Shown piece after piece: positions 252 through 27,240 of a stretch of DNA of 64,000 bases (position 1 is the stretch's first letter; the number at the start of each line of letters is the position of its first letter). This stretch comes from Symbiodinium sp. CCMP2592. Taxonomy: Eukaryota > Sar > Dinophyceae > Suessiales > Symbiodiniaceae. A program made the translations under genes and the position numbers. The notes under the pieces were generated by a model. That model ran no database searches. It saw only the letters and a program-made list of their open reading frames with translations, and was not told the origin of the DNA. Where the stretch lies: assembly GCA_905221615.1 (NCBI GenBank), contig CAJNDT010004668.1, positions 943,001-1,007,000 of the forward strand, in the 5' to 3' direction.

Positions 252-1377
252 GAAAAAAGAAGGGCAGAGTGCCTTAAAAGGCAGAGTGCCAAAGGCAGAG
301 TGCCCAGAATTGGACCATTCAGTGAGTGGCAAATTCCAACATCAATTTAATTTACAGGCCAGGACAGTGACGAAGGCAGAGTGCCAGGTGGGTCAGGCTT
401 CGTCGACTGACTCTTCTCAAGTTTTTCAGTGCCGATGTCTGCTCATGTGGACTTCTGCCTGCCTTTCGCACAGCAACAGGTTATTTGTTTGTGGTGCAGG
501 CAAACCAACAAGTCATGATCAAAGTTGTGAGTGTTTTGGAGAAGGCCTCGTCGCTGTCAGAGTAGTGCCTCCAGAAGAGCATTGCTTGCTGCAGAAGCAA
601 AACTGTGAGTGCTGAGACTTCTGAAGACCGAGCACTTCTGAGTTCTGTTGGATGTGTTGGGTTTGCGACTGTGCTGAGAGAGTCTGAGTATGAATGAAAG
701 TGACCATGCAAGGTTTGGCCGTCAGCTGGCGTCTCCAGACCCCAGGATTGCTGGTCATCGGTGCTGTTCTTAGCTTCCGATCATGCTGCTTCTGCGTTGC
801 CAAATTCAACTTAGCATTCTCGGGCTTCTGAAGTGTCATGTCATGATTGTTTTGCCTATGGCTTATGATGGTTGCTCAGGTTTCAAATGTTGCTGCAGTG
901 GTCCTTGAATCATGGCATATGGCAGATTTGAATATCAACACAGCCCTTGAATTAGGTTTCATTCGTGTGCTAAGCTCCCGATCATGCTGAGTCTGTCTGG
1001 CCCCTCAATTAAGTTAAACTCCGTGTAGCTGCTGCTTCAATAAAAGTGTCATGTCATGATTATTCTGTCGATGGAGTTGCTCAAAGTGAAGTGAGTCGTG
1101 GTCCTTGAATGATGGCATATGCATGATATTTAATGTCAATGTGAGCATAATATCAAAATATAGTTGATATAATTTAAATTGTGTCAAATACTAGTAACTA
1201 TAATCTAACAACACATTGACGTCAGAGGTAGTATATCATTTCGACATTATAAGGCAGAGTGCCGCCTCGCCATTCTTTGCAGAGTGCCTTGAGCTGGACT
1301 GAGAAGGCTGAGTGCCTGCATCTGGCTGGACAAGGCAGAGTGCCGCAATCTGGCTGGACAAGGCAGAGTGCCGCAGG
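252..1377. other. intergenic stretch with GGCAGAGTGCC elements and a duplicated segment
   Basis: No coding frame here looks real. The stretch holds nine copies or near copies of the GGCAGAGTGCC element (about 263, 280, 293, 385, 1251, 1273, 1303, 1333 and 1360) and an imperfect internal duplication at 773-1122. The last copies lie immediately upstream of the ATG at 1378. Confidence 0.6.
773..1122 (+). repeat. imperfect direct duplication, two ~145-bp copies
   Basis: Bases 773-918 and 974-1122 share ordered blocks: GCT(T/C)CCGATCATGCTG, then AAGTGTCATGTCATGATT, then GTGGTCCTTGAAT(C/G)ATGGCATATG. The sequence between the blocks has diverged. This looks like an old tandem duplication of noncoding sequence; no function is apparent. 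Confidence 0.6.
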
Positions 1378-4300
1378 ATGACAGCGCCTGTGCATACGAG
1401 TCCGCTTGGTCAGACGTTTTGGGCCAATGTGCGAGCCGGCAACATCACCTGTGAGTTTTACGAACAACAGCTGGATGGATCCTTGCAGATGGGTCCGAAT
1501 TATCCCTGGCCGATCAAAAAACCTCTAGAATACTATGTCACAGCCTTCGGTGAGGTCCGCCTGCAATTCCGCGTGAGAGGCGGGAAAGGATTCAAACAGT
1601 GCAAGTGTGAATGGAAATACATCGGTCATGGAATGAATCGGGACTCAATGATTGCGAGGATCCCACAGCCGTGGGTCATCGACATTCTGAAGCTTCTGCG
1701 CGAGGTCAGGATTCCTCGGTCTGAAAGGCAGAGTGCCGAAGTCCTCAAAGCCTCGACAGTCGCAGCAGAGGCCCTGAGACTGGTGGATTCTATTCCTGAA
1801 GATGCTCTGGACTTCCATCATCCGACAGATCAGGTGCACCTCTGTGTCAAGCTGCACAGGCCACTCGCAAAGGATGAAAAAGAGTGTGGAAACCAATTTG
1901 ACTGGCGTTTTCTGCAATCTCGAATGTTCACAACCCACTGGCAATCGTTTCCTGTCCCGCTCGCTTTCGACTTGAAAACCTTGGTCACCCATGCCTCGGG
2001 CGTAGTGGCACCGCGGATGAGAAAATCGGTGATCGTCACAGAAGCCAAAGGCAACGGGACGACTGTGGGAGCCTTCCTCAACCAGAGGTTTTCCGACCCA
2101 AGCAAGTTCCCAGAGAAAGAGACCATGCTGATCCTCTTCAAGCTGTTCAAGTTTGTCTTGAAGCTACAAATGCATACCCTTAGGCAGGAAGGGAGTCTTC
2201 TGGGGGACCTCCATGAGAATAACATTACTGTCATGGGAGGCAGAGTGCCGGACCACAAAGGCAGAGTGCCAGTGGGGGCGGAGAATTTGACGTTTGCCTT
2301 GGTGGACTGCTCCGGTTGCCTACCAATTAATGATGTTCCCGCAAAAAAGATGAAGGGTCACCTCAACTGCTTTCTGAGCTTGTGGCAAATTCCCTCAAAC
2401 CACAGCGCCACCGTCTCCGAGTACGCGTCACAGGTCTGGAAGAAGATGCTTGCCGCTGGCGAAAAATTCAAAACGGACTATGGACCGAATAAGTGGAGAG
2501 TTGGTGAAATGGTGTACGATCTGTACAAGTTGTGCAAGAATCTGGAAGCAAAGTTCCAGCAGGGTCTGGACTTGATGCAACAATGCCAGCAAATGAGGGT
2601 CGAGGCAACAAGGGCAGTAATGAGCAGAATGCAGCCGCAGGCACTTGCGCCGCCGAATCCTCCGCCAACACCTCAGTGTTGGGATTCGACACCTCCCTGG
2701 GATCCCCCTGGATCTGCGACTGCAAAAGCCAAAGGGATGAAAGGAGGAGTGCCAGTAGAAGGCAGAGTGCCAGGCAAAGGCAAAGCAATACATCATCCTG
2801 ATGGGACTCCTCCCAGGGGGGCCCGCCCGCCTTTGCATAAACCGCCTCAGCAAAAGGCGAGGCCTCCTGCTCCGTGGCAGGTGCCAGTAAGACCGCTGCG
2901 AAATGCTGGGCCTCTGCCTGATCACCCTTGGCAGCAGGAGTGGGAACCACTTCCTCCTGGCAGGGTGCAACCACATCATCCTCCTCCTGGCAGGGGGCCG
3001 GTGCAACCAGATCATCCTCCTCCTGGCAGGGGGCCGGTGCAACCAGATCATCCTCCTCCTGGCAGGGGGCCGGTGCAACCAGCTCATCCTCCTCCTGGCC
3101 ACCAGCAGCAGCAACATCGCTGGGGCAGAACGGCCAGAATGCCCGTCATCCAGGACGAATACGATGCCTGGCATGACGATGAGCCGAATCCCGAGCCGAA
3201 TTCCCGGCCAAGAGTGCCAGAGCCGATGGGTCCCCCGCCGGCAAAGCAAGGCAGAGTGCCAGAGCCGATGGGTCCCCCGCCGGCAAAGCAAGGCAGAGTG
3301 CCAGATCCCGAGCCGAATCCCCCGCCAAGAGTGCCAGAGCCGATGGGTCCCCCGCCGGCAAAGCAAGGCAGAGTGCCAGAGCCGATGGGTCCCCCGCCGG
3401 CAAAGCAGCCTCCTGCCAAAAGGAAATTCGGCGACGGACAGCCTGTGCCTGTTGGTTCCAAGCCACAGTTTATGTCGGCAAGTGCTCCTGCTGAAATGAC
3501 GGAAAAGCAAAGGATGGACGAGCAGGATTTCGCCAAGGAACTTGCCGAGTATGCTGACGATACGGCAAGAGGCTCCAATTTCGTTCCGCAGGGCCGACGC
3601 GCTGAGCCGGCCTGGGTGGCAAAGGCCCAGGGCTTGAAAAGCAAGGGCGACGCCGTCCCGATCGGGAAAGCAGCTTACTTCGCCCAAAAGGGCAAGCCTG
3701 CCGGAAAGGGCCACAAAGGCAGAGTGCCAGTGGAGGACAATATCCCTACTGACCTTGTTGGAAAGGGCCGTCCAGCCCTAGTGCCACTTGTTGGAAAGGG
3801 CCGTCCCAATATCCCTACTCACCTTGTTGGAAAGGGCCGTCCAGGCGAAGCTCATCCTGCTTTTTTGCGGCATATGAAGACGGAGAAGGGAGGAATATGG
3901 TTGGACCCCAAGGAGGAGGTGGAAGCCGAGGAGGAGGACACTTTGGTTGATGTTGTGGTGGAAGAGGAGGAGCCTGTGCAAGATCCGTCGGACGATGAAA
4001 TGGAATTTGTCGAGGTTATGGTGCAGGATGAGCAACCGCCGCTTGAGATGGAGGCGGAGCCCGACCCGGATCGCTTGGACGAGGATGAGGGTGACAGCCA
4101 AGCAACAATGGTACTAGGGGACCATCTCCGAGAGGAGCAAGATGAGCCGATGCCTTCTGTACCGGAGACCCGGGTGACTGAGAGCGAGCACGATGCCGTC
4201 GTCGCCAAGGTCATGAACGAGCTGGAGGCTATGAATGTGGACCCGAGCCCGAAGGCTGCCGCAAACCCCAAGAGTGCGACTGCGCCAGTGCCTGGAGAGG

Positions 4301-5229
4301 TGAAGCCTTTCTTGGAAGCGGAGGAGGACCTCGGAATTACGGACCCCCAAGGCAGAGTGCCAAGGGGTCAAAACAAGATCAAGGTTCCAGCCGAGCTTTT
4401 GCAGCCAGAGACTGAGGAGGAGAAAACTCTCAGAGCGTTGCGGGGAATGCTGCCATGCAGTCACAGGGCGGTGACGACTTCGAAGGTGGGCCGCCTCGCC
4501 AATCGGGCACGTATGGCGAGACCGGTGCCACAAGATCAGCCGTTCAACCCCCAGCACAACGATCGGAAGTTCAACAGCAAGACTACGACTGTCATGACCC
4601 AGCTGCTCATGGCTGTCCATGAGATCACAGTCCGAGAATGCGAGAAGAATAACGTGCCAGTGGATAGAAAGGACATGGCGTGGAATGACTTTCGGTCGAA
4701 GGGCTCGAAAACTGCGGTTGTCTGGGAGCTGTTGTGTGACCAGAACGTGAAGGAGATTCCAAACAATTCTGAGCCTGGGGACTGGCACCTGTTGCTTCAG
4801 AGGGAAACTGGGGTGGCGGTCATTGAGCAGATTCTCCAGTGCATGTTCAATGTCACTCCGCCAAAACATGGCCGTGATCGAGTCAAGGGAAAAAATCTGA
4901 CATACTGGCACTGGTTTGAGGCCTCCAAGACACTCGTTGAGGTTTATACGACGGAAGATGTCATCTCAAAGGAAAAATTCAAGCCAAAAGACCTGCAGAG
5001 CTGGATTGTGCCTTTGTCCTGCAAGATTTGGGATGCTTACAATTACACCATGCTTGTGTATTGTCAGAAGAAGCTGGAACAGAAGGCAAGGGGGGAAAAC
5101 CTAGACGCGGTGAGCCAGATGGGTGATGATGTCCCGCCATCGGAAGATGAAGAGTATGTGGATGTTTACCAGACCACTGCGAACTTCGTTCCTGATTGGG
5201 GAGTAACTGCAGATGGCTTTAAGGATTGA
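1378..5229 (+). CDS. large protein with kinase-like catalytic loop and proline-rich/acidic middle
   Basis: 1283 residues from the first good ATG; the open frame extends a little further upstream without an ATG. The region around residues 213-320 resembles a phosphotransferase core of the APH/ABC1 type: LGDLHENN at 275-282 matches the catalytic loop pattern (D277, N282), and LVDCSG at 308-313 could be the DFG equivalent (D310). Two GGCAGAGTGCC elements, each read as GRVP, lie between these motifs. I cannot identify a glycine-rich loop or catalytic lysine with certainty, so activity is unproven. Residues ~420-690 are proline-rich and repetitive: three or four PPPGRGPVQPDH-type units (about 2955-3110) and five RVPEPMGPPPAKQ-type units (about 3203-3410). 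LVGKGRP repeats follow (3750-3845), then a Glu/Asp-rich stretch. The last ~250 residues look like a second folded domain (WHWFEASKTLVEVY) with an acidic tail. A second, truncated copy lies beyond the gap at 7783-9714. Confidence 0.75.
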   Translation: MTAPVHTSPLGQTFWANVRAGNITCEFYEQQLDGSLQMGPNYPWPIKKPLEYYVTAFGEVRLQFRVRGGKGFKQCKCEWKYIGHGMNRDSMIARIPQPWVIDILKLLREVRIPRSERQSAEVLKASTVAAEALRLVDSIPEDALDFHHPTDQVHLCVKLHRPLAKDEKECGNQFDWRFLQSRMFTTHWQSFPVPLAFDLKTLVTHASGVVAPRMRKSVIVTEAKGNGTTVGAFLNQRFSDPSKFPEKETMLILFKLFKFVLKLQMHTLRQEGSLLGDLHENNITVMGGRVPDHKGRVPVGAENLTFALVDCSGCLPINDVPAKKMKGHLNCFLSLWQIPSNHSATVSEYASQVWKKMLAAGEKFKTDYGPNKWRVGEMVYDLYKLCKNLEAKFQQGLDLMQQCQQMRVEATRAVMSRMQPQALAPPNPPPTPQCWDSTPPWDPPGSATAKAKGMKGGVPVEGRVPGKGKAIHHPDGTPPRGARPPLHKPPQQKARPPAPWQVPVRPLRNAGPLPDHPWQQEWEPLPPGRVQPHHPPPGRGPVQPDHPPPGRGPVQPDHPPPGRGPVQPAHPPPGHQQQQHRWGRTARMPVIQDEYDAWHDDEPNPEPNSRPRVPEPMGPPPAKQGRVPEPMGPPPAKQGRVPDPEPNPPPRVPEPMGPPPAKQGRVPEPMGPPPAKQPPAKRKFGDGQPVPVGSKPQFMSASAPAEMTEKQRMDEQDFAKELAEYADDTARGSNFVPQGRRAEPAWVAKAQGLKSKGDAVPIGKAAYFAQKGKPAGKGHKGRVPVEDNIPTDLVGKGRPALVPLVGKGRPNIPTHLVGKGRPGEAHPAFLRHMKTEKGGIWLDPKEEVEAEEEDTLVDVVVEEEEPVQDPSDDEMEFVEVMVQDEQPPLEMEAEPDPDRLDEDEGDSQATMVLGDHLREEQDEPMPSVPETRVTESEHDAVVAKVMNELEAMNVDPSPKAAANPKSATAPVPGEVKPFLEAEEDLGITDPQGRVPRGQNKIKVPAELLQPETEEEKTLRALRGMLPCSHRAVTTSKVGRLANRARMARPVPQDQPFNPQHNDRKFNSKTTTVMTQLLMAVHEITVRECEKNNVPVDRKDMAWNDFRSKGSKTAVVWELLCDQNVKEIPNNSEPGDWHLLLQRETGVAVIEQILQCMFNVTPPKHGRDRVKGKNLTYWHWFEASKTLVEVYTTEDVISKEKFKPKDLQSWIVPLSCKIWDAYNYTMLVYCQKKLEQKARGENLDAVSQMGDDVPPSEDEEYVDVYQTTANFVPDWGVTADGFKD

Positions 5230-5939
5230 TCAGTGTCAATGATTGAGCTGAACGAGTAGGTTTATTAATTGTGTTGCCAAAACAAAGCCATCTAGTGGAC
5301 CTCCTCTTCTTCATCCCATTCGTCCTTGGGCACTAGGGACTTTCACAAGGCAGAGTGCCAGAGAGTTCTCGGTGTGACTAAGGCAGAGTGCCACCAAACA
5401 GTGTGGCCTGTTCAGATTCATTTTTGTGTCGCTGTCACTAGGCAGAGTGCCGGAAAGGCAGAGTGCAAATGTGAAATCGCATTTCTTGGGGCGTTTGAAT
5501 GTTGTCACTTTTGCAGTCCGTCTGATCTGGCACATTTCAGCTTGCCGTTTTGGAAAACAAAGACGATGCCTATGCATACAGTCATGTCGGCAGTAACTCG
5601 ATGGATTAATTACTGTGCCTGTGCATTGATTGGTTCAACCTTGGTTTCCTGTGACAGCCCCATAAAACCTTTCAGGTGCTGGCGTCCAAGGTGGTTGGCT
5701 ACTATGGCAAGGCTGGAATGCATGATGCACGTGATTGTGAGTTGTGGAAGCTGAAACGCTTGCTATCTGGCCGTTGATGGGACCATGCCACGTAGTGTGT
5801 ACGGACTCTAGTGACTAGTGAGTGGATGCGCAAGAATTTCTTGACCTGGCCGCAATCAACATATGTGTGTTCTAGATCGAGTCCCTTAGTGCTGCAGTGG
5901 TGCTTCCAGGCAGAGTGCCAGAGACAGTCGCCGAGAGCA
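5230..5939. other. 3' UTR/intergenic stretch between the kinase-like and Gln-rich genes
   Basis: I see no convincing gene. Five GGCAGAGTGCC elements occur (about 5348, 5382, 5441, 5455 and 5908). Frames across it are open only because the element contains no stops. Confidence 0.5.
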
Positions 5940-6374
5940 ATGGGAAAGTCGAGGAAGAGCGCTCGTGTGAGTTATCAGATGATGTTCCCAATGCCGGGGG
6001 CAATGAACCCAGCAATGGGAATGAACAACCCACTGGCCATGATGAACCCTTTCATGTTGCAACAGCAGCAACAGATGCAGCAGCAGCAACAGATGCAGCA
6101 AATGAAGCAGATGCAGCAAATGCAGCAACAGCAGCAGATGGCTGCTGTGGGTGAATCAAGGCAGAGTGCCAACGACTCCTCCTCGTCGGAATCAGAAGAC
6201 CAAGAAGTGAGGAGGATTCGTAAGGAAACCAAGAAGAACAGAGCAAGGCAAGCAGCAACGATCGGGATTGATCGGCTGGCCACGTCCACTACCGATGCAG
6301 ATGCAATCCCGAGAAGCGCCACGACATTGCGTTCGATCCCTCTGGCTGCTTGTCAATCAACAGAGTATCCCTAA
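5940..6374 (+). CDS. Gln/Met-rich low-complexity protein
   Basis: 144 residues from the ATG at 5940, starting MGKSRKSARVS. It has an MNP/MGMNNP stretch, a Q/M-rich tract at about 6058-6140, and a Ser/Glu segment followed by a basic one (RRIRKETKKNRARQ). One element is read as RQSA (about 6159). The next open frame (6435 onward) is in the same phase and opens just after a CAG/GAG-type acceptor-like site, so this could be the 5' exon of the RING gene with an intron removing the TAA at 6372. Possible donors are GTGAGG and GTAAGG near 6208-6222. The same arrangement occurs in the second copy. Family not recognised. Confidence 0.5.
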   Translation: MGKSRKSARVSYQMMFPMPGAMNPAMGMNNPLAMMNPFMLQQQQQMQQQQQMQQMKQMQQMQQQQQMAAVGESRQSANDSSSSESEDQEVRRIRKETKKNRARQAATIGIDRLATSTTDADAIPRSATTLRSIPLAACQSTEYP

Positions 6375-6434
6375 GGTCAGCAAGGATCCCTGAACCCTCC
6401 CCCCACAAAGCCTAGATAAGCCTTACTGACTGAG

Positions 6435-7682
6435 GTGAAGGTGAAAGCTCTGCTCGAGCGAGTTCATAGTGCATGGGATGCTGCGGTCACGGCTGACCTG
6501 CCACAACAAACAGCGCTGCAACTGCTCTTCATATTGACCAATCTGAAGCCGACCACAAAGGTCAGTGAACTCAGGGTCGATATGAAATACAGCTTGCGTG
6601 GTCAGCGATGTGAGAATGCCCATAGGCGTCAATCCGTCTGCGATAGCAGCAGTTGGAACCGCATAGCCAAACCGGTTCTGGGACTGGGGGTGAATATGTC
6701 TGAGCATTCTGTTGACAGGGTTGCCTTGGAGTGTGGATGGCAGTCCACATGGATGACCGAGGATATCACGACCTATGCCAGGCGTAGAGCGAGAGCAAGG
6801 CAGTCCACTGAGACGCAGGGACGTCTCAGTTTCAATCCGAGTCCTGCTCCAGCTGCCCCGCCAACGGTTCCGCCGTCGGAAGGCAGAGTGCCAGACGTGG
6901 TCCGTTCTGGTCCTTTGCCAACGACTGCTCCTAGTTCCAATCCCAGCCAGGCTGTGGGTCGCAGCCCGGCTGGGGAACAAGGCAGAGTGCCGATTCAACA
7001 GCCGCCTGCCTCCCCTCATGCCGTTCCGGGTTCCAATGCAAGCCAGGCAACCGAAGGCAGCCAGGCTGCAGGAAGTGAACAAGACAGAGTGCCGAGGGGT
7101 GTGGAAGGCAGAGTGCCAGTTGATGGGAATGCTCCTGCCATGGATGACGATGGTCTAGCGCCGGCAGAGGCAGAGATCAGGCCCGATCAGGAGATCGTCA
7201 TGCCTCCTGCAGAAGTCACCACTGCACCTCAAACAGTTGAGTTGCCAGAGCCAGACACCTCCACGAACAGTGACTCGACAGCCGGTGCTGACGTGAATGC
7301 CGTTGTGCCCTTTGCGACACCCAAGTCGAAAGCCAAAGCAAAAGCCAAGGGCAAGTAGAAAGCCAAGGCCAAGTCCAAGGCCAGGGCGACGGCACCAAAC
7401 ACAGAGTCGCAGGACGAGGTCGCAGTCGAGGTCGATGATGAGGTCATGGCCGAGGCCGGGGCCGAGGTCGAGGCCGGGGCCGAGGTCGAGGCCGAGGTCG
7501 AGCGCGAGGCCGACGACAGTGGCTTCTTTGAGGAGGAGGAGGAGGAGGATGCTCCGAATGAGTCGAGCAGACCTGCGAACCGGTGGAACCAGGACCTCTG
7601 TGTCATTTGCCATTCGGAGATGCACCCGGGCCAGGCAGGCTTGTTTCGTTTGCCTTTGGTTAATGAACCATTGATAGTGGTG
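6435..7682 (+). pseudogene. RING-H2 protein, first copy: nonsense codon and cut by the gap
   Basis: This matches the gene at 10920-12543, but carries TAG at 7356-7358 (GGCAAGTAG) where the other copy has TCG. The frame continues open after the stop through the Lys/Ala-rich and acidic regions to the first half of the RING (CVIC at about 7599-7610), and is then cut by the N gap at 7683, at what would be the intron donor. Four elements encode GRVP or DRVP (about 6882, 6978, 7081, 7106). There is no in-frame ATG at the 5' end of the frame, so an upstream exon is likely. The stop may be a real lesion or a base-call error. Confidence 0.6.
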
Positions 7683-7782
7683 NNNNNNNNNNNNNNNNNN
7701 NNNNNNNNNNNNNNNNNNNNNNNNNNNNNNNNNNNNNNNNNNNNNNNNNNNNNNNNNNNNNNNNNNNNNNNNNNNNNNNNNN
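7683..7782. other. assembly gap (100 N)
   Basis: Exactly 100 N, a conventional gap of unknown size. Sequence ending at 7682 is continued at 12165, and sequence starting at 7783 matches from 3297, so the gap joins two overlapping or duplicated segments. Confidence 0.99.
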
Positions 7783-9714
7783 AGTGCCAGATCCCGAGCC
7801 GAATCCCCCGCCAAGAGTGCCAGAGCCGATGGGTCCCCCGCCGGCAACGCAAGGCAGAGTGCCAGAGCCGATGGGTCCCCCGCCGGCAAAGCAGCCTCCT
7901 GCCAAAAGGAAATTCGGCGACGGACAGCCTGTGCCTGTTGGTTCCAGGCCACAGTTTATGTCGGCAAGTGCTCCTGCTGAAATGACGGAAAAGCAAAGGA
8001 TGGACGAGCAGGATTTCGCCAAGGAACTTGCCGAGTATGCTGACGATACGGCAAGAGGCTCCAATTTCGTTCCGCAGGGCCGACGCGCTGAGCCGGCCTG
8101 GGTGGCAAAGGCCCAGGGCTTGAAAAGCAAGGGCGACGCCGTCCCGATCGGGAAAGCAGCTTACTTCGCCCAAAAGGGCAAGCCTGCCGGAAAGGGCCAC
8201 AAAGGCAGAGTGCCAGTGGAGGACAATATCCCTACTGACCTTGTTGGAAAGGGCCGTCCAGCCCTAGTGCCACTTGTTGGAAAGGGCCGTCCCAATATCC
8301 CTACTCACCTTGTTGGAAAGGGCCGTCCAGGCGAAGCTCATCCTGCTTTTTTGCGGCATATGAAGACGGAGAAGGGAGGAATATGGTTGGACCCAAAGGA
8401 GGAGGTGGAAGCCGAGGAGGAGGACACTTTGGTTGATGTTGTGGTGGAAGAGGAGGAGCCTGTGCAAGATCCGTCGGACGATGAAATGGAATTTGTCGAG
8501 GTTATGGTGCAGGATGAGCAACCGCCGCTTGAGATGGAGGCGGAGCCAGACCCGGATCGCTTGGACGAGGATGAGGGTGACAGCCAAGCAACAATGGTAC
8601 TAGGGGACCATCTCCGAGAGGAGCAAGATGAGCCGATGCCTTCTGTACCGGAGACCCGGGTGACTGAGAGCGAGCACGATGCCGTCGTCGCCAAGGTCAT
8701 GAACGAGCTGGAGGCTATGAATGTGGACCCGAGCCCGAAGGCTGCCGCAAACCCCAAGAGTGCGACTGCGCCAGTGCCTGGAGAGGTGAAGCCTTTCTTG
8801 GAAGCGGAGGAGGACCTCGGAATTACGGACCCCCAAGGCAGAGTGCCAAGGGGTCAAAACAAGATCAAGGTTCCAGCCGAGCTTTTGCAGCCAGAGACTG
8901 AGGAGGAGAAAACTCTCAGAGCGTTGCGGGGAATGCTGCCATGCAGTCACAGGGCGGTGACGACTTCGAAGGTGGGCCGCCTCGCCAATCGGGCACGTAT
9001 GGCGAGACCGGTGCCACAAGATCAGCCGTTCAACCCCCAGCACAACGATCGGAAGTTCAACAGCAAGACTACGACTGTCATGACCCAGCTGCTCATGGCT
9101 GTCCATGAGATCACAGTCCGAGAATGCGAGAAGAATAACGTGCCAGTGGATAGAAAGGACATGGCGTGGAATGACTTTCGGTCGAAGGGCTCGAAAACTG
9201 CGGTTGTCTGGGAGCTGTTGTGTGACCAGAACGTGAAGGAGATTCCAAACAATTCTGAGCCTGGGGACTGGCACCTGTGGCTTCAGAGGGAAACTGGGGT
9301 GGCGGTCATTGAGCAGATTCTCCAGTGCATGTTCAATGTCACTCCGCCAAAACATGGCCGTGATAAAGTCAAGGGAAAAAATCTGACATACTGGCACTGG
9401 TTTGAGGCCTCCAAGACACTCGTTGAGGTTTATACGACGGAAGATGTCATCTCAAAGGAAAAATTCAGCCCAAAGACCTGCAGAGCTGGATTGTGCCTTT
9501 GTCCTGCAAGATTTGGGATGCTTACAATTACACCATGCTTGTGTATTGTCAGAAGAAGCTGGAACAGAAGGCAAGGGGGGAAGACCTAGACGCGGTGAGC
9601 CAGATGGGTGATGATGTCCCGCCATCGGAAGATGAAGAGTATGTGGATGTTTACCAGACCACTGCGAACTTCGTTCCTGATTGGGGAGTAACTGCAGATG
9701 GCTTTCAGGATTGA
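7783..9714 (+). pseudogene. kinase-like protein, second copy: 5'-truncated and frameshifted
   Basis: It corresponds to the C-terminal half of the protein at 1378-5229, beginning in the RVPEPMGPPPAKQ repeats directly after the gap; the kinase-like motifs are not present. One base is missing around 9467-9474 (TTCAGCCCAAAG against TTCAAGCCAAAAG), so the frame shifts and ends early at 9589. The original frame resumes to a TGA at 9712-9714. Other differences are substitutions. Read as a lesion, this copy is broken while the first copy is intact here; read as assembly overlap, it is allelic or sequencing variation. Confidence 0.65.
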
Positions 9715-18110: not shown

Positions 18111-18934
18111 TATGGAGTAGAATGTTGTTTTGTTAACCAGTTGTTTAAGATTAGTGAATTCTTTGTCACACATTCATTTGATGCCACGTACCCGCGCCAC
18201 AGTCGAACTAAATTCGACTACCGCTCTTGCCATGGCCGACCCGACGTTCGGCTCTTGCGCCAAGCTGTTGGCCAAGTCCAGCAGAAGGTAATGTCGGGGG
18301 CAGAAGTATCCGCTGCGAACTCTGGGATGGCACCACGACGACCACGACGTCCTGCTTCTTTGCGAGCAGAGGGCGACATAAGCATAGCGCGGGCAAATGC
18401 TTGCAGCTGCTAGTGGTCGTTGAGAGCCTCATATCCCCATGGCAGAGCGGGGTGACCCCATATCTCGGCCGAATGGGGGTGGCCTAAGTCTCCGGTCCGC
18501 ATGACTGTCAGAGCACGTTCGTCTTTGCAAAGACGCCGGGGAGGCCGTTACAGAAAGGGATGCTTAAGTCAGGTTGTGCATTTAATATTTATGAAAGGCA
18601 GAGTGCCAGTAAAACTTCTAAGGGTTCAGGGTTTAGTGGTTTGCTGCGCTTGCTGTTGATCAGAAAATCCTTGTCGATTCGCTTGCCGGCATGTGGAGTG
18701 TGGCCGCTACCCAGGACTCGCTGTGTCTCGCACAGGGCTCTGAGGGAAGAACGTAGTGCAGGGCAGCTTACAAGTCTCCTGCCCTTACCCACGGTGCACT
18801 TCCGCCGAACGCTTCTTTCGAGATTCAGTTCGAGTTGTGTGCTGCAGCACCGCTGGCCGGGTGCTGGGGGGCCGCTGCATCGAGTTTTTCGAGCTCTTGA
18901 GGCCAACGCAGAGAGCTCTGTGCTCTCTGTATGA

Positions 18935-18965
18935 CAGTCGGACACATGGGCTAACGTGCCGGCTG
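18935..18965 (+). ncRNA. conserved hairpin, module B
   Basis: Arms CAGTCGG and CCGGCTG (one G-U pair), inner CAC/GTG, loop ATGGGCTAAC. The preceding helix is CTGGCC (18853) with GGCCAAC (18901), and GGGAGGCC follows at 19011. A truncated copy of the hairpin lacking the 5' arm lies at 19023-19046. Confidence 0.55.
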
Positions 18966-19430
18966 GGAGCTCCTTAGTCTCTGCGTGAGCATCGCTCGGG
19001 CGGTTCGGAGGGGAGGCCCGGTGTGACATGGGCTAACGTGCTGGCTGGGTCCGAGGTCGGCACCCGAGTGTCCTCCTCTGCAACTTGGGAGGCCGAATCG
19101 AGTATTATAGCAATTACGTCAGGTTGTGATCAATTTTTTGAAAGGCAGAGTGCCAAAGGCAGAGTGCCAGTAAAACTTCTCAGGGTTTAGTAGGGTTTAG
19201 TGGTTTGCTGTGCTTGCTTTTGATCATAAACGTCCTTGTCGATTCGCTTGCCCGACCTAAACCTGAGCAGCGGGCTGGCCGAGGGGGCCCTAGAGACCTG
19301 CCAGGTTCCATCTTGTTGGCCGTGTTGGGGGCAGCGATCCATCCGGAGCTGAAAGCTTGGCCACTGACGCCTGCGTGGCCTCGTGGCGGCCACCCTTGGG
19401 GCCAACTCCCCTACAGCCCGAGGGGTATGA

Positions 19431-19460
19431 CAGCAGGGCGATGCGCTAATGCGCCTGCTG
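19431..19460 (+). ncRNA. conserved hairpin, module C
   Basis: Arms CAGCAGG and CCTGCTG, a fully paired 7-bp stem that differs from the other copies on both sides; loop region ATGCGCTAAT. The helix GTTGGCC 19315 / GGCCAAC 19400 precedes it; GGGAGGCC at 19517 follows. Confidence 0.55.
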
Positions 19461-20193
19461 GGGGTGGCTTAAATGGGGGGCGGGTGTGTCCTTCCCCCCC
19501 CGGTGAGATCCTAAAAGGGAGGCCGCTTGAGTTGTGTTGTAAAGAGAAGGGTGAGATAGTGCCTTCTTCAGTTCTTGCCTGTGCTCACTTTTGCGCGCAA
19601 GTGGCCCTGGGATCAGGTCTATCGTTGATCGTTTGGCATGGCCTGTAGTGGCAGTGTAGCAGCCTGCTGTAAGTTTCCACTACCCCAGCCGCCAGCTGTG
19701 CCTAGAGCCTGCTACTCACAGGGTGATTTCGGCCTGTGCCTGGTTTGTTTCTATCGGCGCGTTGCGGGCGATGTTTACGCCGAAGCAAACCAAGTCTCCG
19801 GGATCTGTTACATCGCAGGTGTGCCAAATGGCCTGCTGAGCAACAGCTGCGACGGGATCCGGCACAGCGCTGTCATCTTAATTCATTCCCTGTGAGCATG
19901 GCGACCCACCTTGGCCGAGTGGGGTGGATTTCAGCAAATGGGGGAGGCCGCTAACCCATGATTAGGCTATATCTCTTTCTGCTGAGCACATGCTTTCTGT
20001 TCTCTTGGATCGACGACAGAGGCAGAGTGCCGAGGCAGAGTGCCAGTCGAACCTCTTCGGTGTTGCCTTACCTAAGGAGTAAACCCCTGCCCCACCAGGG
20101 TTGCTCCCCACACCATTGGCCATGTGTGAGGCGTTCGGTTTGCCTGTGTCACAGCCTTGAGGCCAACCTATCCCAGGGGCAGGGGGTAGATGA

Positions 20194-20224
20194 CAGCCGG
20201 GCACATGGGCTAATGCGCCGGCTG
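20194..20224 (+). ncRNA. conserved hairpin, module D1
   Basis: Arms CAGCCGG and CCGGCTG fully paired, inner GCA/TGC, loop CATGGGCTAA. TTGGCC (20116) and GGCCAA (20161) precede it; GGGAGGCC at 20289 follows. Confidence 0.55.
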
Positions 20225-20638
20225 GGGCTGTGACCTGGTGACATCGAAGCAGTCATGCAAGTCACCGGAAGCAATACCGGACAAAGAAGGGAGGCCGTTC
20301 TTGGGACATGGCTGTGTTGTTGAGCTGGTGTGTTCCTCCGTCTCATTCATAGTAGAATGTTGTTTTGTTAGCCAGTTGTTTAAGATTATAGTGAATTCTT
20401 TGTCACACCAACCTTACCAACAAGTCGCGGTGTGTCCAGTTTTGATTCACCAGCCGCGCTTGCATGCCGATGGCCGGGCATGGGGTCGCTTTGGGGGACC
20501 ATGGAAGGAAGACGGAACCGAGGACTTGTGACCTCTGCCAGGGCCATCTGCGCAACGCCCTCAGGGACTGAGGGTCGTCGCGCCGATGGCGTTGGCAGAG
20601 GCCTGTGGCCAACCACCAGAGCGGACACCTGGTGATGA

Positions 20639-20669
20639 CAGCCAGACACATGGGCTAACGTGCTGGCTG
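20639..20669 (+). ncRNA. conserved hairpin, module D2
   Basis: Arms CAGCCAG and CTGGCTG fully paired, inner CAC/GTG, loop ATGGGCTAAC. GTTGGC (20591) and GCCAAC (20608) precede it; GGGAGGCC at 20709 follows. Confidence 0.55.
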
Positions 20670-21109
20670 GGTCCGAGCTCGGCACCCGAGTGTCCCCCTT
20701 TGCAACATGGGAGGCCAAATATCGAGCAGAAGTACAGTAATTAGAGTGTCAGTCGAACCTCCTCAAGGTTGCCTTACCTAGCTGGATTTTCTGCGACCTC
20801 GGATCGTGTTGTCCGGGCCAGACTTCCAGGTTCCGAACAAAGAAGGGAGGCCGTCCGTTCTTGGGACATGGTTGTCTTATTGAGCAGAGAACCTTGCTCG
20901 GCTTGCTGTTCGGTTGTGTTTGTCACGAGTGCCAACATGTTCAGAATGGGGTTTGGTGTATGTTGCTCTACCAAGCGGCAGCTGCATGCCCGCCAATTTT
21001 GGCAGCTACCGACACACTGTTGGCCGGGTGTGGAGCGAGGGCAAGGGCACTGGGGTCCCGCAGTCTAGGGGGGGGTTGGGGCCAACGGCCAGCGGGCATC
21101 TGGCTATGA

Positions 21110-21140
21110 CATCTGGACACATGCGCTAACGTGCCAGGTG
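21110..21140 (+). ncRNA. conserved hairpin, module E
   Basis: Arms CATCTGG and CCAGGTG (7 bp with one G-U), inner CAC/GTG, loop ATGCGCTAAC. GTTGGCC (21019) and GGCCAAC (21080) precede it; GGGAGGCC at 21187 follows. Compared with module D1, three stem positions differ and pairing is kept. Confidence 0.55.
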
Positions 21141-21371
21141 GCCCCTCCCGAAAATGACGTAGCCTCGGTGACCCAAGCTCTTCCATGGGAGGCCGAAGAA
21201 TGGTGTTGCTTGCGCATAGTGTTGAAGTCCAAGTTGTACTTTTGTATCTCAACGATTGCAGCGAACGAATCGATCGCTCTTTGACTTGCCAGCTCAGGTG
21301 TGCCTGAGTCCAGCTGTGACGAGTGGCAGCTTCGAATCAATCGGTTGTACCAGGAGAGAGCTATCACTGCT

Positions 21372-24173
21372 ATGCAGCACTGTCGACAAATCAACTTCAT
21401 CGCCGATGGGTCTACTCACAGCACCAGCGATTGTCTTGTGACAGTGGCTTGGGCGAATGAGATTTCTGCTGCAGTGTTTGCACCCATGCAAGTGATGAAG
21501 ACTGGACAAGTTTCTCCACAAGACCGGTTTGACGACGACCTGCTTCTTCACATATCAAAGCGAAAGAAGCTGGAAAGGATTGCTGCATTCAGGCAGCTTC
21601 AAGCGATCAGTCACCAAATCTGGATTTTGCACAGAGGGCGAATGGATTTGGGCTCTTTCAAGATCGCCCCCTCTCTTGGGCAGAGGCCTGTGAAAAGATA
21701 TGAAAGCAGGGTGGTTTTCCAAGTTGGAAAAGAAGACAATGACATTGACCGCTGTTTTCAGTGGTTGAGGGACAATCCGGATCCGGCTGAAGGCAGAGTG
21801 CCAGAAGGCAGAGTGCCAGAAGGCAGAGTGCCACCAGCTTTTCCTCATGTCTCCTTTCTGAAGACAATGTCTGAGGATGGAGAGATCACAAATGTGCTCC
21901 CCGTCTTGCCAGAGTCAGAGAAGTGGTGGCTGAACATTCCACTGCTGGTCTTGGGCCTTGACCAGGGCAGCATCGGACTTGCTGGCATGGCCTATGCTAT
22001 GCGTGAAAACATGATTCATGTGAAATGTGACAAGATTCACAGGGCCATTCGAGATTTCAAAAACAGCATGTCGAGATGCCTCAAAGGACTCTTCCTGAAA
22101 GCACAACTTCACTCCTCTTACATCTTTGCCCTGAATTATAAACCCTTTGGAAGTGGTGGTTTCTACCAGCAGAAGAAGGAAATGCTGGCGAGTTTTGTTT
22201 CCTGCACATCACCGAGCAGAAGCTTGTTGTGGGACGCTTTTCGAGATAAGATTGCCTATGACTTAGACAGGCAGCTATCCGGTGACGAGCATGAGATTGA
22301 ACATATGCTTGCAAATGTCGAATCCTTCATGAAGAAGGGCAGCTTGGTGAAATCCTCCAGATGGTTCAGCTGGAACCAGCTATGTTGTGAGCAACTTCAT
22401 GAGTTTCATGTCCTCAAAATGCTGCTGGCTGATCATTTCGGTGAAGATCAATCTTTCAGCCCTTGCTCAAGGGAAAGACTCAGCCTGTATTCCAACTCGG
22501 CGAATACACAATCGGGCAAGGAGCTCTTCGAAGGCAGAGTGCCAGAGTCCGAAGGCAGAGTGCCGGACTCTGACAATGGTGAGAGGCAGGAAGATGCACT
22601 GGGTGATTTGCAAAAGCTGTCACAGGCTGGTCGTGCCACTGATCCACGGAAAGAACTCAGCTTGTTGAAAGCCAGCATGGGGGGCTTCAAGTTGGCATAC
22701 TATCTCATGACAGAAGACCTTTTCGATCACTCCAAGATATTGTACAAAGTGACCGAACCGTTGTGGACATGGTATGGGAAACAAGTAAAAAACGTTAAAT
22801 CGCCGCAGGATGGTCGAGGTTATGCCGAGTTGATGACAGTGAATGATGCCTGGAAAGCAGACAAACATTTGTTGCAGATTGTCTCCAACCTGCAGAAGAC
22901 CGAGTTGTGGAAGGAGCATCTGGATACTGATTTACACGAGCCCGCAGAAAAAATCATGATGTTGAGCTTGCATTTGCTGATGAACAGGGTCTGGACTTGC
23001 AGTCTTTTTTCACTTCCACCAGATGCCTATGCGGGATTGCTGTCACCTGATGCAGAAATTCGGACGATCACGGCTTTGAAGGCAAAGGGCCATCACACAT
23101 CACTCTTGAGGTTGGAGTCGACATTGGCACGGTCCACTCCAAGTGTTCATGCCCGGCAACTCTTCACAGACCTGCAAGTTGGAATCAGCCATCCTTCGAG
23201 ACTTTTTCTGGACACATTGGAGGCACAGGGATATGAAGTGGCGCCTCCGGGGTCAGAAGACATTGTCGTGGATGATGTTGACACAGAGCAGGACGGGGAG
23301 ATGGAGGATTCTGTGCCTGAAGAAGCAGATGACGGTGCCGGAGTTGGTGACATTTTGTTAGACGGGCAAGAGGGCAGAGTGCCAGCTCAAAGGACTGTAA
23401 CAATATCGGTACCAGCATGCCCTGCAACCCACCTGCTGAGTGTTCTGGTGCAGACGCTGCCAGACAACAAGATTGTGGAAGATGTGCACAACAAGATTCG
23501 TAATGATTCTTTGTTGAACAAAACCCGCAAGCAAACATACTCCACGATTCAAACTGTGATCGAGAATTCAAACGTCTTTGAAAGCCGTTCAATCAGGCAT
23601 CCGGCAAAAGTCAAACGGGAATATTTTGAAAGGGAGTTTTGGAATGTGGACAGGAAGCGCCAAAAGTTGTGCTTCAGAGGATGTGTCCACAAGCTGCCGT
23701 CACAGTATACCGAGATTGTCGGCGACAAGACATGGAACACCCTGTCAGAAGAGACACTCGAACGAGCATCAGCTGCGTGGTCATGGCTAATTCACTACAA
23801 TGATGCAAGACTGGCATCTCAGCATGTTCCCTTGCGTGCTGGGAAGTTTAGCAGCCTTGCAGCCCCTTTGAAGATCTTGAACCATGTCTTGGATTTGACA
23901 TGCTATCTCTCTCTTGGGGCAAAAACCTGGGCTGCTCTCATGTGGCCAGTGGTCCAGCATGAGGACCAGTCGACAGGAGAGATATATTTTGTTTTGAAGG
24001 CAGAGTGCCCGGATGGTTCCAGCGTCAAGGCCTGCTGGATTCATTTGTATGAGCCCCAGTATTGGGAAGTCATCGAAACAGAGGCAGTCTTCTGGAATGG
24101 CTTCATTTGCCTCCGTCGTTGTGCTACAAGCTCAGTGTCACTTCTATCCTATATGTTGCAGCATCCCAAGTGA
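21372..24173 (+). CDS. large unrecognised protein, possibly nuclease/transposase-like
   Basis: 933 residues from the first in-frame ATG. The frame is already open and protein-like from about 21300, right after a TTGCCAGCTCAG acceptor-like site, so an upstream exon is likely. NFIADGSTHS near the start and LLVLGLDQGS about 200 residues later are the type of Asp-bearing strands found in RNase H-fold transposases, but I cannot place the remaining catalytic residues, so this is a guess. Six elements encode GRVP: three in tandem at 21790-21834, two near 22531-22563, and one at about 23370. One near 23997 is read in the rare KAEC frame. An acidic linker (about 23265-23345) separates the N- and C-terminal regions. 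The last ~250 residues are again well structured (LCFRGCVHKLPSQYTEIVGDK). No second copy is seen in this window. Confidence 0.6.
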   Translation: MQHCRQINFIADGSTHSTSDCLVTVAWANEISAAVFAPMQVMKTGQVSPQDRFDDDLLLHISKRKKLERIAAFRQLQAISHQIWILHRGRMDLGSFKIAPSLGQRPVKRYESRVVFQVGKEDNDIDRCFQWLRDNPDPAEGRVPEGRVPEGRVPPAFPHVSFLKTMSEDGEITNVLPVLPESEKWWLNIPLLVLGLDQGSIGLAGMAYAMRENMIHVKCDKIHRAIRDFKNSMSRCLKGLFLKAQLHSSYIFALNYKPFGSGGFYQQKKEMLASFVSCTSPSRSLLWDAFRDKIAYDLDRQLSGDEHEIEHMLANVESFMKKGSLVKSSRWFSWNQLCCEQLHEFHVLKMLLADHFGEDQSFSPCSRERLSLYSNSANTQSGKELFEGRVPESEGRVPDSDNGERQEDALGDLQKLSQAGRATDPRKELSLLKASMGGFKLAYYLMTEDLFDHSKILYKVTEPLWTWYGKQVKNVKSPQDGRGYAELMTVNDAWKADKHLLQIVSNLQKTELWKEHLDTDLHEPAEKIMMLSLHLLMNRVWTCSLFSLPPDAYAGLLSPDAEIRTITALKAKGHHTSLLRLESTLARSTPSVHARQLFTDLQVGISHPSRLFLDTLEAQGYEVAPPGSEDIVVDDVDTEQDGEMEDSVPEEADDGAGVGDILLDGQEGRVPAQRTVTISVPACPATHLLSVLVQTLPDNKIVEDVHNKIRNDSLLNKTRKQTYSTIQTVIENSNVFESRSIRHPAKVKREYFEREFWNVDRKRQKLCFRGCVHKLPSQYTEIVGDKTWNTLSEETLERASAAWSWLIHYNDARLASQHVPLRAGKFSSLAAPLKILNHVLDLTCYLSLGAKTWAALMWPVVQHEDQSTGEIYFVLKAECPDGSSVKACWIHLYEPQYWEVIETEAVFWNGFICLRRCATSSVSLLSYMLQHPK

Positions 24174-24279
24174 CATGTTTTCATTTAGGATTCTGTCAAC
24201 TGTCGACCCATACAGTAAATAGTACAATAAACTTATATAAGTTTTGCTGTGCTTGTTTTTGCTGACTCGACTGAGGGAA

Positions 24280-25467
24280 ATGTCACAAGCATGTCGGACT
24301 CTCGCAGACTGCCAGAATCTCGCCGAGCATGTGATCTCCCAGACTGGAAACGTAGACGAAAAAAAGCGAAAGGAGCTGCAACGAATGCGCCGTCCAAAGC
24401 TCATGAGCCTGATCGCTTCTCATCACCTTCCGGAAGATGAGGATTTCATGCGCAAAATTGAGGCTATGTATTCGACAGCCAAAGATTCAACAGAGGATGA
24501 GGATGAGGATGACATTATCATGGGGGACTTTGTTGATGAGCTGGTTCTTGACGACCTGCTTGCTGAGGACAAACAGGAATTTAAACTGGTCTCAGACGCA
24601 GTCAGAAAACGCAGAATCAAAAGGGTGCATCAAACCTGGCAGGCCATCAAGACGCAGCAAGCAAAGGCCAAGGCAAAGGGCAAGGCCAAAGCAAAGACCA
24701 AAGCAAAGGCCAAGCCACAGGCCAAACGGAAAGCCAAGAGAAAGATTTGTCGCCCACGTATGTTGCCCAGGAAGCAACCCGCGCCTCCTGATGAAAGTGG
24801 TCAAGAGGGAGCAGAAGGCAGAGTGCCAGCACCTCCTGCTGAGGTGCCGGTGGAGCCGGAGCCTGATAATCACGTGGAGGCCGCGGAAGGCAGAGTGCCA
24901 GCCCCTCCTGCTGAGATGCCGGAGGTGCCTGCTGCAATCCCTGTCCCAGAGCCTGATGATCACGTGGAGCCCGAGGAAGGCAGAGTGCCAGCCCCTCCTG
25001 CTGAGATGCCGGAGGTGCCTGCAGTGCCTATCCCAGCACTCGAGCCACGGGAGGTTGCAGTCCGTGGCCCCCAACATCAGCGGCGGCCGAACCGTGTTGA
25101 CTACCAAGGGGTATGGACACCTGTTCAATGCCCGGAGTGTCCCAAGATCGCTGGTGAGATGAAGTACGACCCGAATCCTGGTGGCACTGACAAAGCAAAA
25201 TGGTTTCTCCGAGTTCGTGTGACAGACGGCGGTCTCTTGGAAAGATTCGGAACATTTGTTATAGCTTCGATGTGGTTGCCTGATCTGCTGTGTGTTGTGT
25301 CACATTACATGAACCCATGTGTGTCTGGCATTGAAGGCGAGTGGAGCCACCTCGTACCCTATCACTGGGGACGTGTGGCTTCCAAGATGACAGAAGCGCA
25401 GGCCAGACAACACGTCATTGACCATAGGCCCTGTTGTGGCCCGACCAGGAGGCCTGGCAACAACTAG
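24280..25467 (+). CDS. Lys/Ala-rich, proline-rich protein with C-terminal Cys-containing domain
   Basis: 395 residues from the ATG at 24280 (MSQACRTLADCQNLAEH); the open frame extends upstream without an ATG. Order: a short helical N-terminus, an acidic stretch (DSTEDEDEDD), a strongly basic KAKAKGKAK-type tract (about 24655-24745) like those of histone H1-type chromatin proteins, then three repeats of EGRVPAPPAE(V/M)P separated by acidic linkers. The C-terminal ~120 residues look folded (WTPVQCPECPKIAGEMKYDPN, WFLRVRVTDGGLLERFGTFVIASMWLPDLL) with a CPEC pair and a final CC. Nucleic-acid binding through the basic tract is a reasonable inference; no named family is recognised. Confidence 0.6.
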   Translation: MSQACRTLADCQNLAEHVISQTGNVDEKKRKELQRMRRPKLMSLIASHHLPEDEDFMRKIEAMYSTAKDSTEDEDEDDIIMGDFVDELVLDDLLAEDKQEFKLVSDAVRKRRIKRVHQTWQAIKTQQAKAKAKGKAKAKTKAKAKPQAKRKAKRKICRPRMLPRKQPAPPDESGQEGAEGRVPAPPAEVPVEPEPDNHVEAAEGRVPAPPAEMPEVPAAIPVPEPDDHVEPEEGRVPAPPAEMPEVPAVPIPALEPREVAVRGPQHQRRPNRVDYQGVWTPVQCPECPKIAGEMKYDPNPGGTDKAKWFLRVRVTDGGLLERFGTFVIASMWLPDLLCVVSHYMNPCVSGIEGEWSHLVPYHWGRVASKMTEAQARQHVIDHRPCCGPTRRPGNN

Positions 25468-25747
25468 AGGATTCATCCTGCGCTGCAAAGAAAAGTTGTG
25501 TGTCTGTCTGTGTGCTTGCATTGATGGCAGCGGGTCCTGCTAGATTGGAATGCGTCCGAGAGACTGTGTGTTTCTGCTTGGGGAAGACGGATTGCGAAAG
25601 CATGTTCGCATTTTCACACATGTGGAATTTGTCACGTGCAAGCACATGGACAATCATTTCGAGTGCCACAACCCGGAAGCCGCACAAACTAGCACATGTG
25701 GTTTGAAGCCGTGCGTGCTTGTGACTGAACAGTAGCCGTCCAGAGCA

Positions 25748-26248
25748 ATGCATTTCGCCCCGATCGAACGAGGAGAGTGTTTCTTCAGAGGCGAGCTCTC
25801 CCCAATCTTGATCAAAACCGCTTGCGAAAAATTGGCCAAAGCGCCTGACCAGTGGAAACCAGCTGAGAGATGGAATGAAGTTTATGACGACGTGCCTTGG
25901 GAAATCATGGTTCGCTACCTGCGTTACTGGCCACGTATTGGCTCCCGCATTACAGGAGGCCTCAGGCTTCTTCGACGGTACCAAGGCCCCTTCCCGAAGT
26001 GTTATCAGGTGGGTGAAGGAGAAGAACCGCTGGAGTTGCCGCGCGTTTCTCTCGTTTGTGATTTTGTTTATGTTTGGAACGACGAAGATGAACAACAACG
26101 GCAGTTTGTCCTTCAGATGAAACACCTCTCACTTGTTGCCATCCGTCTCGGTGGTCCGGGGGAACTTCCTGACCTTGATGCTGGAGCAATACCTTTGACC
26201 GACCAGCTGAGTGCAAAGTTGGGGTGGGCAATAATTAATGGATCTTGA
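25748..26248 (+). CDS. unrecognised 166-residue protein
   Basis: ATG at 25748 to TGA at 26246-26248. It is compact and aromatic-rich, without low complexity (ERWNEVYDDVPWEIMVRYLRYWPRIG; VCDFVYVWNDEDEQQRQFVLQMKHLSLVAIRLGG), so probably a single globular domain. It contains no element inside, unlike most neighbours, but one begins 7 nt after the stop and another at about 26278. It is the last gene of the left block. No function assigned. Confidence 0.6.
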   Translation: MHFAPIERGECFFRGELSPILIKTACEKLAKAPDQWKPAERWNEVYDDVPWEIMVRYLRYWPRIGSRITGGLRLLRRYQGPFPKCYQVGEGEEPLELPRVSLVCDFVYVWNDEDEQQRQFVLQMKHLSLVAIRLGGPGELPDLDAGAIPLTDQLSAKLGWAIINGS

Positions 26249-26404
26249 GGCGGGAAGGCAGAGTGCCAGCAGCTGGGAAGGCAGAGTGCCAGACGTTGTC
26301 GCGTCACCCAGCTGTACCCTGCTTCGCCTGCACGTGATTCGCTTGACAGTGTGGTCAACGCAGAAAAGCGCAACATCCAGCAGTTCGTAGCCACTTCACG
26401 CGAT

Positions 26405-27240
26405 TTGTGCATCCCTAATACTATCAAACCCTAAAACTATGGCACTCTGCCTTCTAGCCCCAAACCCTAAATACTAAAGACCCTGAAACTCTAACCCTAA
26501 CCCTTTCATTACCCTCAAACCCTAACACTATGGCACTCTGCCTTCTAACCCCAAACCCTAAATATACTAAAGACCCTGAAACTCTAACCCTAACCCTTTC
26601 ATTACCCTCAAACCCCTAATACTATGGCACTCTGCCTTCTAACCCCAAACCCTAAATATACTAAAGACCCTGAAACTCTAACCCTAACCCTTTCATTACC
26701 CTCAAACCCTAACACTATGGCACTCTGCCTGCTAACCCCAAACCCTAAATACTAAAGACCCTGAAACTCTAACCCTAACCCTTTCATTACCCTCAAACCC
26801 CTAATACTATGGCACTCTGCCTTCTAACCCCAAACCCTAAATATACTAAAGACCCTGAAACTCTAACCCTAACCCTTTCATTACCCTCAAACCCTAACAC
26901 TATGGCACTCTGCCTGCTAACCCCAAACCCTAATACTAAAGACCCTGAAACTCTAACCCTAACCCTTTCATTACCCTCAAACCCCTAATACTATGGCACT
27001 CTGCCTTCTAACCCCAAACCCTAAATATAATAAAGACCCTGAAACTCTAACCCTAACCCTTTCATTACCCTCAAACCCCTAATACTATGGCACTCTGCCT
27101 TCTAACCCCAAACCCTAAATATAATAAAGACCCTGAAACTCTAACCCTAACCCTTTCATTACCCTCAAACCCCTAATACTATGGCACTCTGCCTTCTTAA
27201 CCCCAAACCCTAAAGACCCTGAAACTGTAAACCCTGTGCC
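26405..27240. repeat. tandem array of ~93-bp units with telomere-like sequence and reverse-orientation elements
   Basis: Nine units share the phase CTAACCCTAACCCTTTCATT, then ACCCTCAAACCCCTAATACT, then ATGGCACTCTGCCTTCTAACC, then AAACCCTAAATATACTAAAG. GGCACTCTGCC (the element in reverse) begins near 26440, 26532, 26626, 26719, 26811, 26903, 26994, 27089 and 27183. Units differ by small changes (TATACT/TATAAT, CTTCT/CTGCT, short deletions). Noncoding. Confidence 0.9.

Follow-up and report, generated by a model that had tools for sequence, protein, structure and literature searches.

According to the available part of PMC5735166, VANC targets on VANDAL transposons consist of a short word that is dense, held in a single orientation and enriched in its own family, that evolves through tandem repeats and that varies among related families. 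The subterminal motifs of CACTA elements also vary from family to family and serve as binding sites for proteins that the elements encode, as described in the accessible text of PMC2613891, and SymbioLINE-Dnmt and SymbioDIRS-Dnmt3 are presented in the available part of PMC5890265 as dinoflagellate retrotransposons with a C5 DNA methyltransferase. Here we analysed a 64,000-nt stretch of the Symbiodinium sp. CCMP2592 genome (contig CAJNDT010004668.1, positions 943,001 to 1,007,000; hereafter the window), in which a block of 27 kb is filled with copies of an 11-nt motif, GGCAGAGTGCC. The block is, with near certainty, a single copy of a giant DNA transposon, and the motif is probably a word kept at the level of the nucleic acid.

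The transposon occupies G000:C4667:937520-970669, a length of 33,150 bp that corresponds to window positions −5480 to 27669. The block therefore extends 5.48 kb upstream of the window and is itself a repeated transposon, which goes beyond the original prediction made from the window alone.

1..27669, + strand: part of the transposon within the window, the left end lying 5.48 kb upstream of the window.
27618..27669, − strand: right terminal inverted repeat, 52 bp, followed by a 5-bp target duplication, TTAAA, at 27670-27674.

The region from −5480 to ~27670 was found to align to C1:1146664-1190172 at 98-99% over long blocks, with alignment identity breaking off sharply at both ends of the element. 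The ends are mutually inverted repeats, imperfect in that 44 of 52 positions match between left and right. All 20 left ends sampled from the 40 scored begin at the identical base and have unrelated flanks. Exact 5-bp target duplications were present in each of the nine readable end pairs (TTAAA, TACTG, TCAGT, TATAG, TGGAA, ATTAA, ATCTA, TTAAA and TAGTA) of 11 pairs tried, the two unreadable pairs being those of C1, which lies in an AT repeat with a match over 9 bp, and of C677, which had no right end in the fetched stretch. Eight paired ends span 29.6 to 78.5 kb (maximum in C1746), and a 23-mer from the right end had 136 exact genome-wide matches compared with 0 for its control. Since the 40 scored left ends are all 100% identical, amplification of the transposon looks recent; the element is possibly autonomous. 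CpG in the element was 0.64 against 0.68-0.69 in the flanks, a difference too small to use.

The C1 copy (L015-L020, C1:1146664-1190172) contains an internal tandem duplication of ~14.8 kb. Given this duplication and the paired ends of up to 78.5 kb, the elements may often be internally duplicated or nested. The window also contains a direct duplication of 4.4 kb (99.3%), 3297-7682 and 7783-12164, adjoining the 100-N assembly gap at 7683-7782, which may be an assembly artefact because both of its copies align to the same places in C1. Beside the right terminal repeat, positions 27289-27601 form an A/T-rich TTTAAAAGTT-like array, which has a similar counterpart within the left end.

The window holds 74 exact copies of GGCAGAGTGCC, 64 on the + strand and 10 on the − strand, across 263-27193. 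One-mismatch matches on the + strand added 10 more, of which two (34168 and 56314) lie beyond the block, so that 82 exact or one-mismatch copies were counted in the block where the original prediction had put roughly 85 copies in 27 kb. The whole element carries 87 exact copies, 77 + and 10 −, and nine of the − copies sit in a single tandem array near the right end.

263..26290, + strand: 64 of the element's 77 exact + copies, the other 13 lying upstream of the window; consensus AAGGCAGAGTGCC(A/G).
13626..13636, − strand: lone inverted motif copy not in the right-hand array.
26424..27214, − strand: 94-bp tandem array of 8.5 units with nine inverted, inward-pointing motif copies, ending 455 bp from the right end.

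As first described, the motif, GGCA-GAG-TGCC, can form a GGCA/TGCC hairpin with a GAG loop and has no stop in any frame, neither of which is remarkable alone. Across the whole element, the two positions preceding it are A in 67 and 73 of the 77 + copies, and the position following it is A or G in 72 of the 77, giving the extended form AAGGCAGAGTGCC(A/G). In the right-hand array the motif is paired with telomere-like AACCCTAAA units; similar telomere-like tracts also occur at 30230, 48040, 49444 and 59614.

Markov null models of order 1-3 gave a mean of 0.03-0.33 copies per element and a maximum of 2 against the 87 observed, and a shuffle preserving both the proteins and the codon usage gave a mean of 1.67 and a maximum of 6 against 37 observed. 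Genome-wide (1.098 Gb), 20,442 exact copies (9890 + 10552) were found compared with 244 (118 + 126) for the reversed-word control, far from the near-random frequency that the original prediction had named as an outcome speaking against it. No exact copy was present in the 80.9 kb flanking the element, where the mismatch spectrum was 0 exact, 3 with one and 35 with two mismatches, compared with 87, 9 and 15 in the element. Confinement of the motif to the transposon thus holds locally, around the C4667 copy, with the motifs ending at the element borders. On contig C1, no motif was found ahead of the transposon copy at 1,147,141 among the matches listed, if these are ordered by position. Most of the 20,442 genomic copies likely stem from the copy number of the transposon.

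Changes in the motif were followed at the tandem units and between copies of the element.

14550..14596, + strand: three in-frame 15-nt units GAAGGCAGAGTGCC(A/G), (EGRVP)x3, from Tandem Repeats Finder.
21789..21833, + strand: three 15-nt units, (EGRVP)x3, from Tandem Repeats Finder; two units in the C2501 and C2213 copies.
18594..18607, + strand: one 14-nt unit here, two in the C1 and C358 copies, a gain or loss of one unit.
20924..20933, + strand: a 5-bp difference disrupts the motif in this copy but not in the C1, C358, C2501 and C2213 copies.

The first two rows confirm tandem units already noted at 14550-14594 and 21789-21833. Point differences between element copies were also seen, for example at 5457 and 7107. 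The observed changes consist of tandem units and the 5-bp edit, with no motif at new places in the copies compared. An independent micro-transposon, that is a free 15-nt element inserting genome-wide, would account for the exact presence and absence of units between copies, but it is scarcely credible given the lack of any exact copy in the 80.9 kb around the C4667 transposon copy and of any motif at a new place. The proliferating element of the original prediction therefore stands in part: its action at the nucleic-acid level, its presence in open reading frames (ORFs) in three frames and its gain and loss of units are upheld, and its existence as a free micro-element, rather than one confined to the transposon, is not.

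A second possibility is a neutral by-product, in which slippage, unequal exchange and gene conversion spread a functionless G+C-rich word. The gains and losses of whole tandem units and the large internal duplication on C1 would be expected under this explanation. Differences between element copies numbered 4 in 847 columns within motifs compared with 383 in 30,130 elsewhere (P 0.04), but the near flanks were equally poor in differences (11 in 1711), as a neutral origin would also predict, and motif-specific selection is therefore not claimed from substitutions. Set against this are the small number of one-mismatch copies, a QSA-frame site common to all six kinase-like relatives that cover it (see below) and an even spacing of the motif clusters. 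In a test that left out the duplicated copy and the right-hand array, 47 clusters (60-bp merge) were more evenly spaced than in a hard-core random model (coefficient of variation 0.625 compared with 0.862, P 0.007), with P values of 0.014, 0/20,000 and 0.0008 at merges of 30, 130 and 200. Overall, a neutral by-product is considered quite improbable.

The genes of the element were modelled to determine how the motif is distributed over coding sequence.

1372..5226, + strand: 1285-aa ORF, kinase-like by eye only (GDLHENN...VDCSG); GRVP x8, QSA x1.
5940..7355, + strand: ORFs treated as a single RING-type gene (first copy); QSA x1, GRVP x3.
10425..12541, + strand: RING-type gene, second copy; joined last exons match zf-RING_2 above the cut-off.
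14037..15041, + strand: ORF without assigned function; GRVP x4.
15443..16498, + strand: 352-aa protein, C5-cytosine DNA methyltransferase fold; carries the motif at 15807 (QSA frame), directly before FAGQGN.
17082..18107, + strand: first exon of a transposase candidate, by eye resembling the N-terminal part of P0008/P0009.
18108..21284, + strand: intron-like stretch with repeated modules and five motif copies, splice sites inferred.
21285..24170, + strand: 962-aa ORF, transposase candidate; GRVP x6, AEC x1.
24292..25464, + strand: 391-aa ORF that includes a Lys/Ala-rich segment; GRVP x3.
25748..26245, + strand: 166-aa ORF without motif or Pfam match.

The motif had been reported inside nearly every coding frame; it is carried by 10 of the 13 non-duplicated ORF segments modelled and is absent from the segments at −75..248, 7359-7682 and 25748-26245. 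The 65 non-duplicated + copies, a count that excludes the second kinase-like copy, comprise 28 in noncoding sequence, 26 in the GRVP frame, eight in the QSA frame and three in the AEC frame, such that all three reading frames are used inside ORFs. Motif density was 2.31 per kb in coding and 2.34 per kb in noncoding sequence, the coding value taking in the duplicated ORFs, including the length of the second kinase copy and its three motif copies. All 26 GRVP peptides are encoded as GGC AGA GTG CC(A/G). If GRVP were instead a linear protein motif that the DNA merely follows, the prominence of its frame (26 of 37 non-duplicated coding copies) and the enrichment of GVVP or GVLP at GRVP sites in three distant relatives would be explained, but the 28 noncoding copies, the 11 in other frames and the absence of any GRVP peptide with a different codon set (0/26) make such a peptide-level motif very unlikely. 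A free micro-element, random occurrence and a peptide-level motif were accordingly rejected on the confinement, the null models and the noncoding, frame and codon data.

All seven kinase-like relatives (31-44% BLASTP identity), among them P0053, named Symbiodinium microadriaticum, hold 5 to 11 GRVP, above 200 shuffles, and the N-terminal extension of P0055 has GRVP, KAEC, RQSA and GRVP in succession. Conservation as ordinary protein sequence, which the original prediction had named, for every copy, as its other adverse outcome, was seen at one site, the QSA-frame site at window 1727, which is common to six of six kinase-like relatives covering that position; many GRVP sites are present in some of these relatives and absent in others. 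Among the 25 relatives of the 962-aa ORF, which include P0016, named Polarella glacialis, GRVP is enriched in three close ones. GVVP is enriched in P0005 (weakly, P 0.04) and P0007 and GVLP in P0006, at the same linkers as GRVP. This occupation of GRVP linkers by GVVP and GVLP suggests that the word differs between families. Searches for other families in the same genome with P0009, P0007 and P0040 as queries returned only the family of the C4667 element among the best 36 of 1033, 52 of 831 and 118 of 826 candidates scored; other families may be hidden, since just part of the candidates was scored. No relatives were found in viral contigs.

Pfam matches in the ORFs scanned were limited to RING and a weak phosphatase, with none for polymerase, integrase, capsid or reverse transcriptase. 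The phosphatase-like ORF (HCYGGINRT) lies upstream, and its DSPc and CDKN3 matches fall below the cut-offs. The kinase-like ORF and its relatives P0049, P0050 and P0055 had no Pfam match. The 352-aa protein carries a C5-cytosine DNA methyltransferase fold, with putative methylating activity, and neither it nor its relatives P0026, P0027, P0039 and P0040 matched Pfam DNA_methylase. The 962-aa frame is open in 48 of the 52 genomic copies scored (the best 52 of 831 candidates), with 957 aa in three and 950 in one. This transposase candidate had no Pfam match and no significant PDB sequence match by alignment, PDB sequence profiles of A1 and A2 gave no significant match, and the predicted local distance difference test (pLDDT) score of its structure model was 48. 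The stretches ADGSTHS, LDQGSIG, RWFSWN and KIVED are kept in many of its relatives; a hAT-like DDE arrangement of this protein is conjectural. The + ORFs are overlapped by antisense frames as long as 449 aa, which were set aside as mechanical. The intron-like stretch (18110-21284) is built of modules GGGAGGCCGT and ACATGGGCTAACGTGC, the former recurring near the left end of the element, and perfect arrays of the decamer AATCTTATTG lie between two element genes at 13041-13310.

The orientation of the motif bears on two further explanations. With 77 of 87 copies on the strand of the modelled ORFs, and with copies alike in ORFs, the putative intron and intergenic DNA, the motif could be an RNA-level tag, a sense-strand element (4-bp stem, GAG loop) serving export, stability, translation or escape from small RNAs in transcripts. 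The nine inverted copies in the right subterminal array are at odds with this, and the strand bias itself is not diagnostic, since VANC DNA targets, in the part of the source available, also share one orientation; we regard the RNA tag as unlikely, though deserving of attention. That same array, dense, inward-pointing and ending 455 bp from the right end, would suit a cis-site for transposition at which the word is a transposase-binding repeat like that of TNPA in CACTA elements, whose subterminal motifs are family-specific and bound by element-encoded proteins (PMC2613891, accessible text). The first left-hand copy, however, is isolated and 688 bp in, and most copies lie many kilobases from both ends, many of them within ORFs, making a transposition site a doubtful explanation for the motif as a whole.

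The best overall explanation, to which we give an even chance of being correct, is a giant transposon with its own recognition word, AAGGCAGAGTGCC(A/G), that is read as DNA by a protein. A sequence-specific protein, which we infer to be encoded or recruited by the element, would bind the word as DNA. Repeats every ~0.5-0.7 kb, nearly all in one orientation, would mark the whole element as self. By analogy with VANC on VANDAL transposons, this marking would most likely set an epigenetic state, through anti-silencing or self-modification; such an anti-silencing or self-marking role is given slightly less than even chances. The right-hand inverted array possibly aids transposition. Selection for motif density would act at the nucleotide level, and the word would for that reason also be kept in exons tolerating GRVP, QSA or AEC, often in linkers, while local duplication of 14- or 15-nt units, together with small edits, would supply new copies. 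A self-address in the nucleic acid is proposed because of the parallels with VANC targets, CACTA elements and dinoflagellate C5 methyltransferases. More tentatively, and on balance doubtfully, the transposon family may enforce the word evenly over its entire body, in exons as well and in all three frames, as a self-address, the word having changed together with its reader in related families (GRVP-, GVVP- and GVLP-coding).

Several observations weigh against this explanation. The strand bias suits an RNA tag equally well, and the low divergence of the motifs is shared by their near flanks. The widest gap separating clusters is not exceptionally small (P 0.08-0.20). VANC targets are mainly noncoding in the available part of that source, whereas the density of the motif here is equal in ORFs. 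The methyltransferase, without a Pfam match, could serve a purpose other than the motif. No tetrapeptide is enriched beyond shuffles in 18 of the 25 homologues of the 962-aa ORF, and AASR, enriched in P0019, probably reflects low complexity. The GVVP and GVLP families are known from peptides alone, and the cause there may lie at the peptide level. The genomic count is also unbalanced, in that 20,442 copies at 87 per element would fill ~235 elements, whereas 136 exact right ends were counted; the surplus must come from copies that are truncated or carry internal duplications, or from other carriers.

If correct, this more tentative reading would describe a counterpart of bacterial uptake sequences that spans a whole transposon and may be coupled to the cytosine methyltransferase encoded by the element, and an epigenetic identity that rewrites protein-coding sequence. 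The element offers a countable example in which the identity code that a mobile element carries in its DNA appears to take precedence over coding constraint. The question of how transposons identify themselves in the face of host silencing is still open, and for it a word is defined here together with its spacing, the frames it uses and candidate family versions. There is also a warning for dinoflagellate protein sets, in which a recurring peptide like GRVP can be the trace left by a DNA word and need not be a protein motif. Outside the element, a spliced-leader-like word with two mismatches occurs at 62626-62646, as would be expected of a retrocopied dinoflagellate transcript.

In the open literature, no dinoflagellate giant or cargo transposon matching the element was found, and none of the 10 papers that contain the 11-mer dealt with this topic, judging from their titles and the openings of their abstracts; the available parts of PMC11071213 and PMC12695648 concern Mavericks and base modification, not the C4667 element. 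The element resembles Maverick/Polinton elements and polinton-like viruses in its size range, 15-40 kb for Maverick/Polinton in the available text of PMC11071213, and in its protist host. It differs from Maverick/Polinton in its 5-bp duplication and 52-bp terminal repeats, and no polymerase, capsid or integrase match was obtained in the ORFs scanned. Maverick/Polinton elements have a 6-bp target duplication and long terminal repeats, and hAT elements have an 8-bp target duplication, again unlike the 5 bp here. Introners and MITEs differ in that the motif unit was not seen inserting at new sites in the copies compared or in the 80.9 kb of surroundings. The likeness to SymbioLINE-Dnmt and SymbioDIRS-Dnmt3 lies in a dinoflagellate mobile element with a C5 methyltransferase, but its terminal inverted repeats and its target duplications make the present element a DNA transposon.

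Further parallels concern recognition words. As far as the accessible text shows, CACTA elements (En/Spm, Tgmt) and TNPA share a short motif that varies between families and a dense subterminal array; the ends here begin TCCTTAACCC rather than CACTA, the duplication is 5 bp rather than 3 bp, and the motif is spread over the full length of the element. With the VANDAL/VANC system, in the part of the source available, the element shares a short, dense, same-orientation word (77 + and 10 −, with none in the surrounding 80.9 kb), gain and loss of tandem units and a differing word in related families; the target duplication here is 5 bp, and binding of the word is putative. Bacterial DNA uptake sequences are likewise short words that recur within genes and between them to mark identity, but they concern whole bacterial genomes and DNA import rather than one transposon. 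A family-specific recognition word in a transposon is of a known kind, and its even, ORF-inclusive use in three frames is new.

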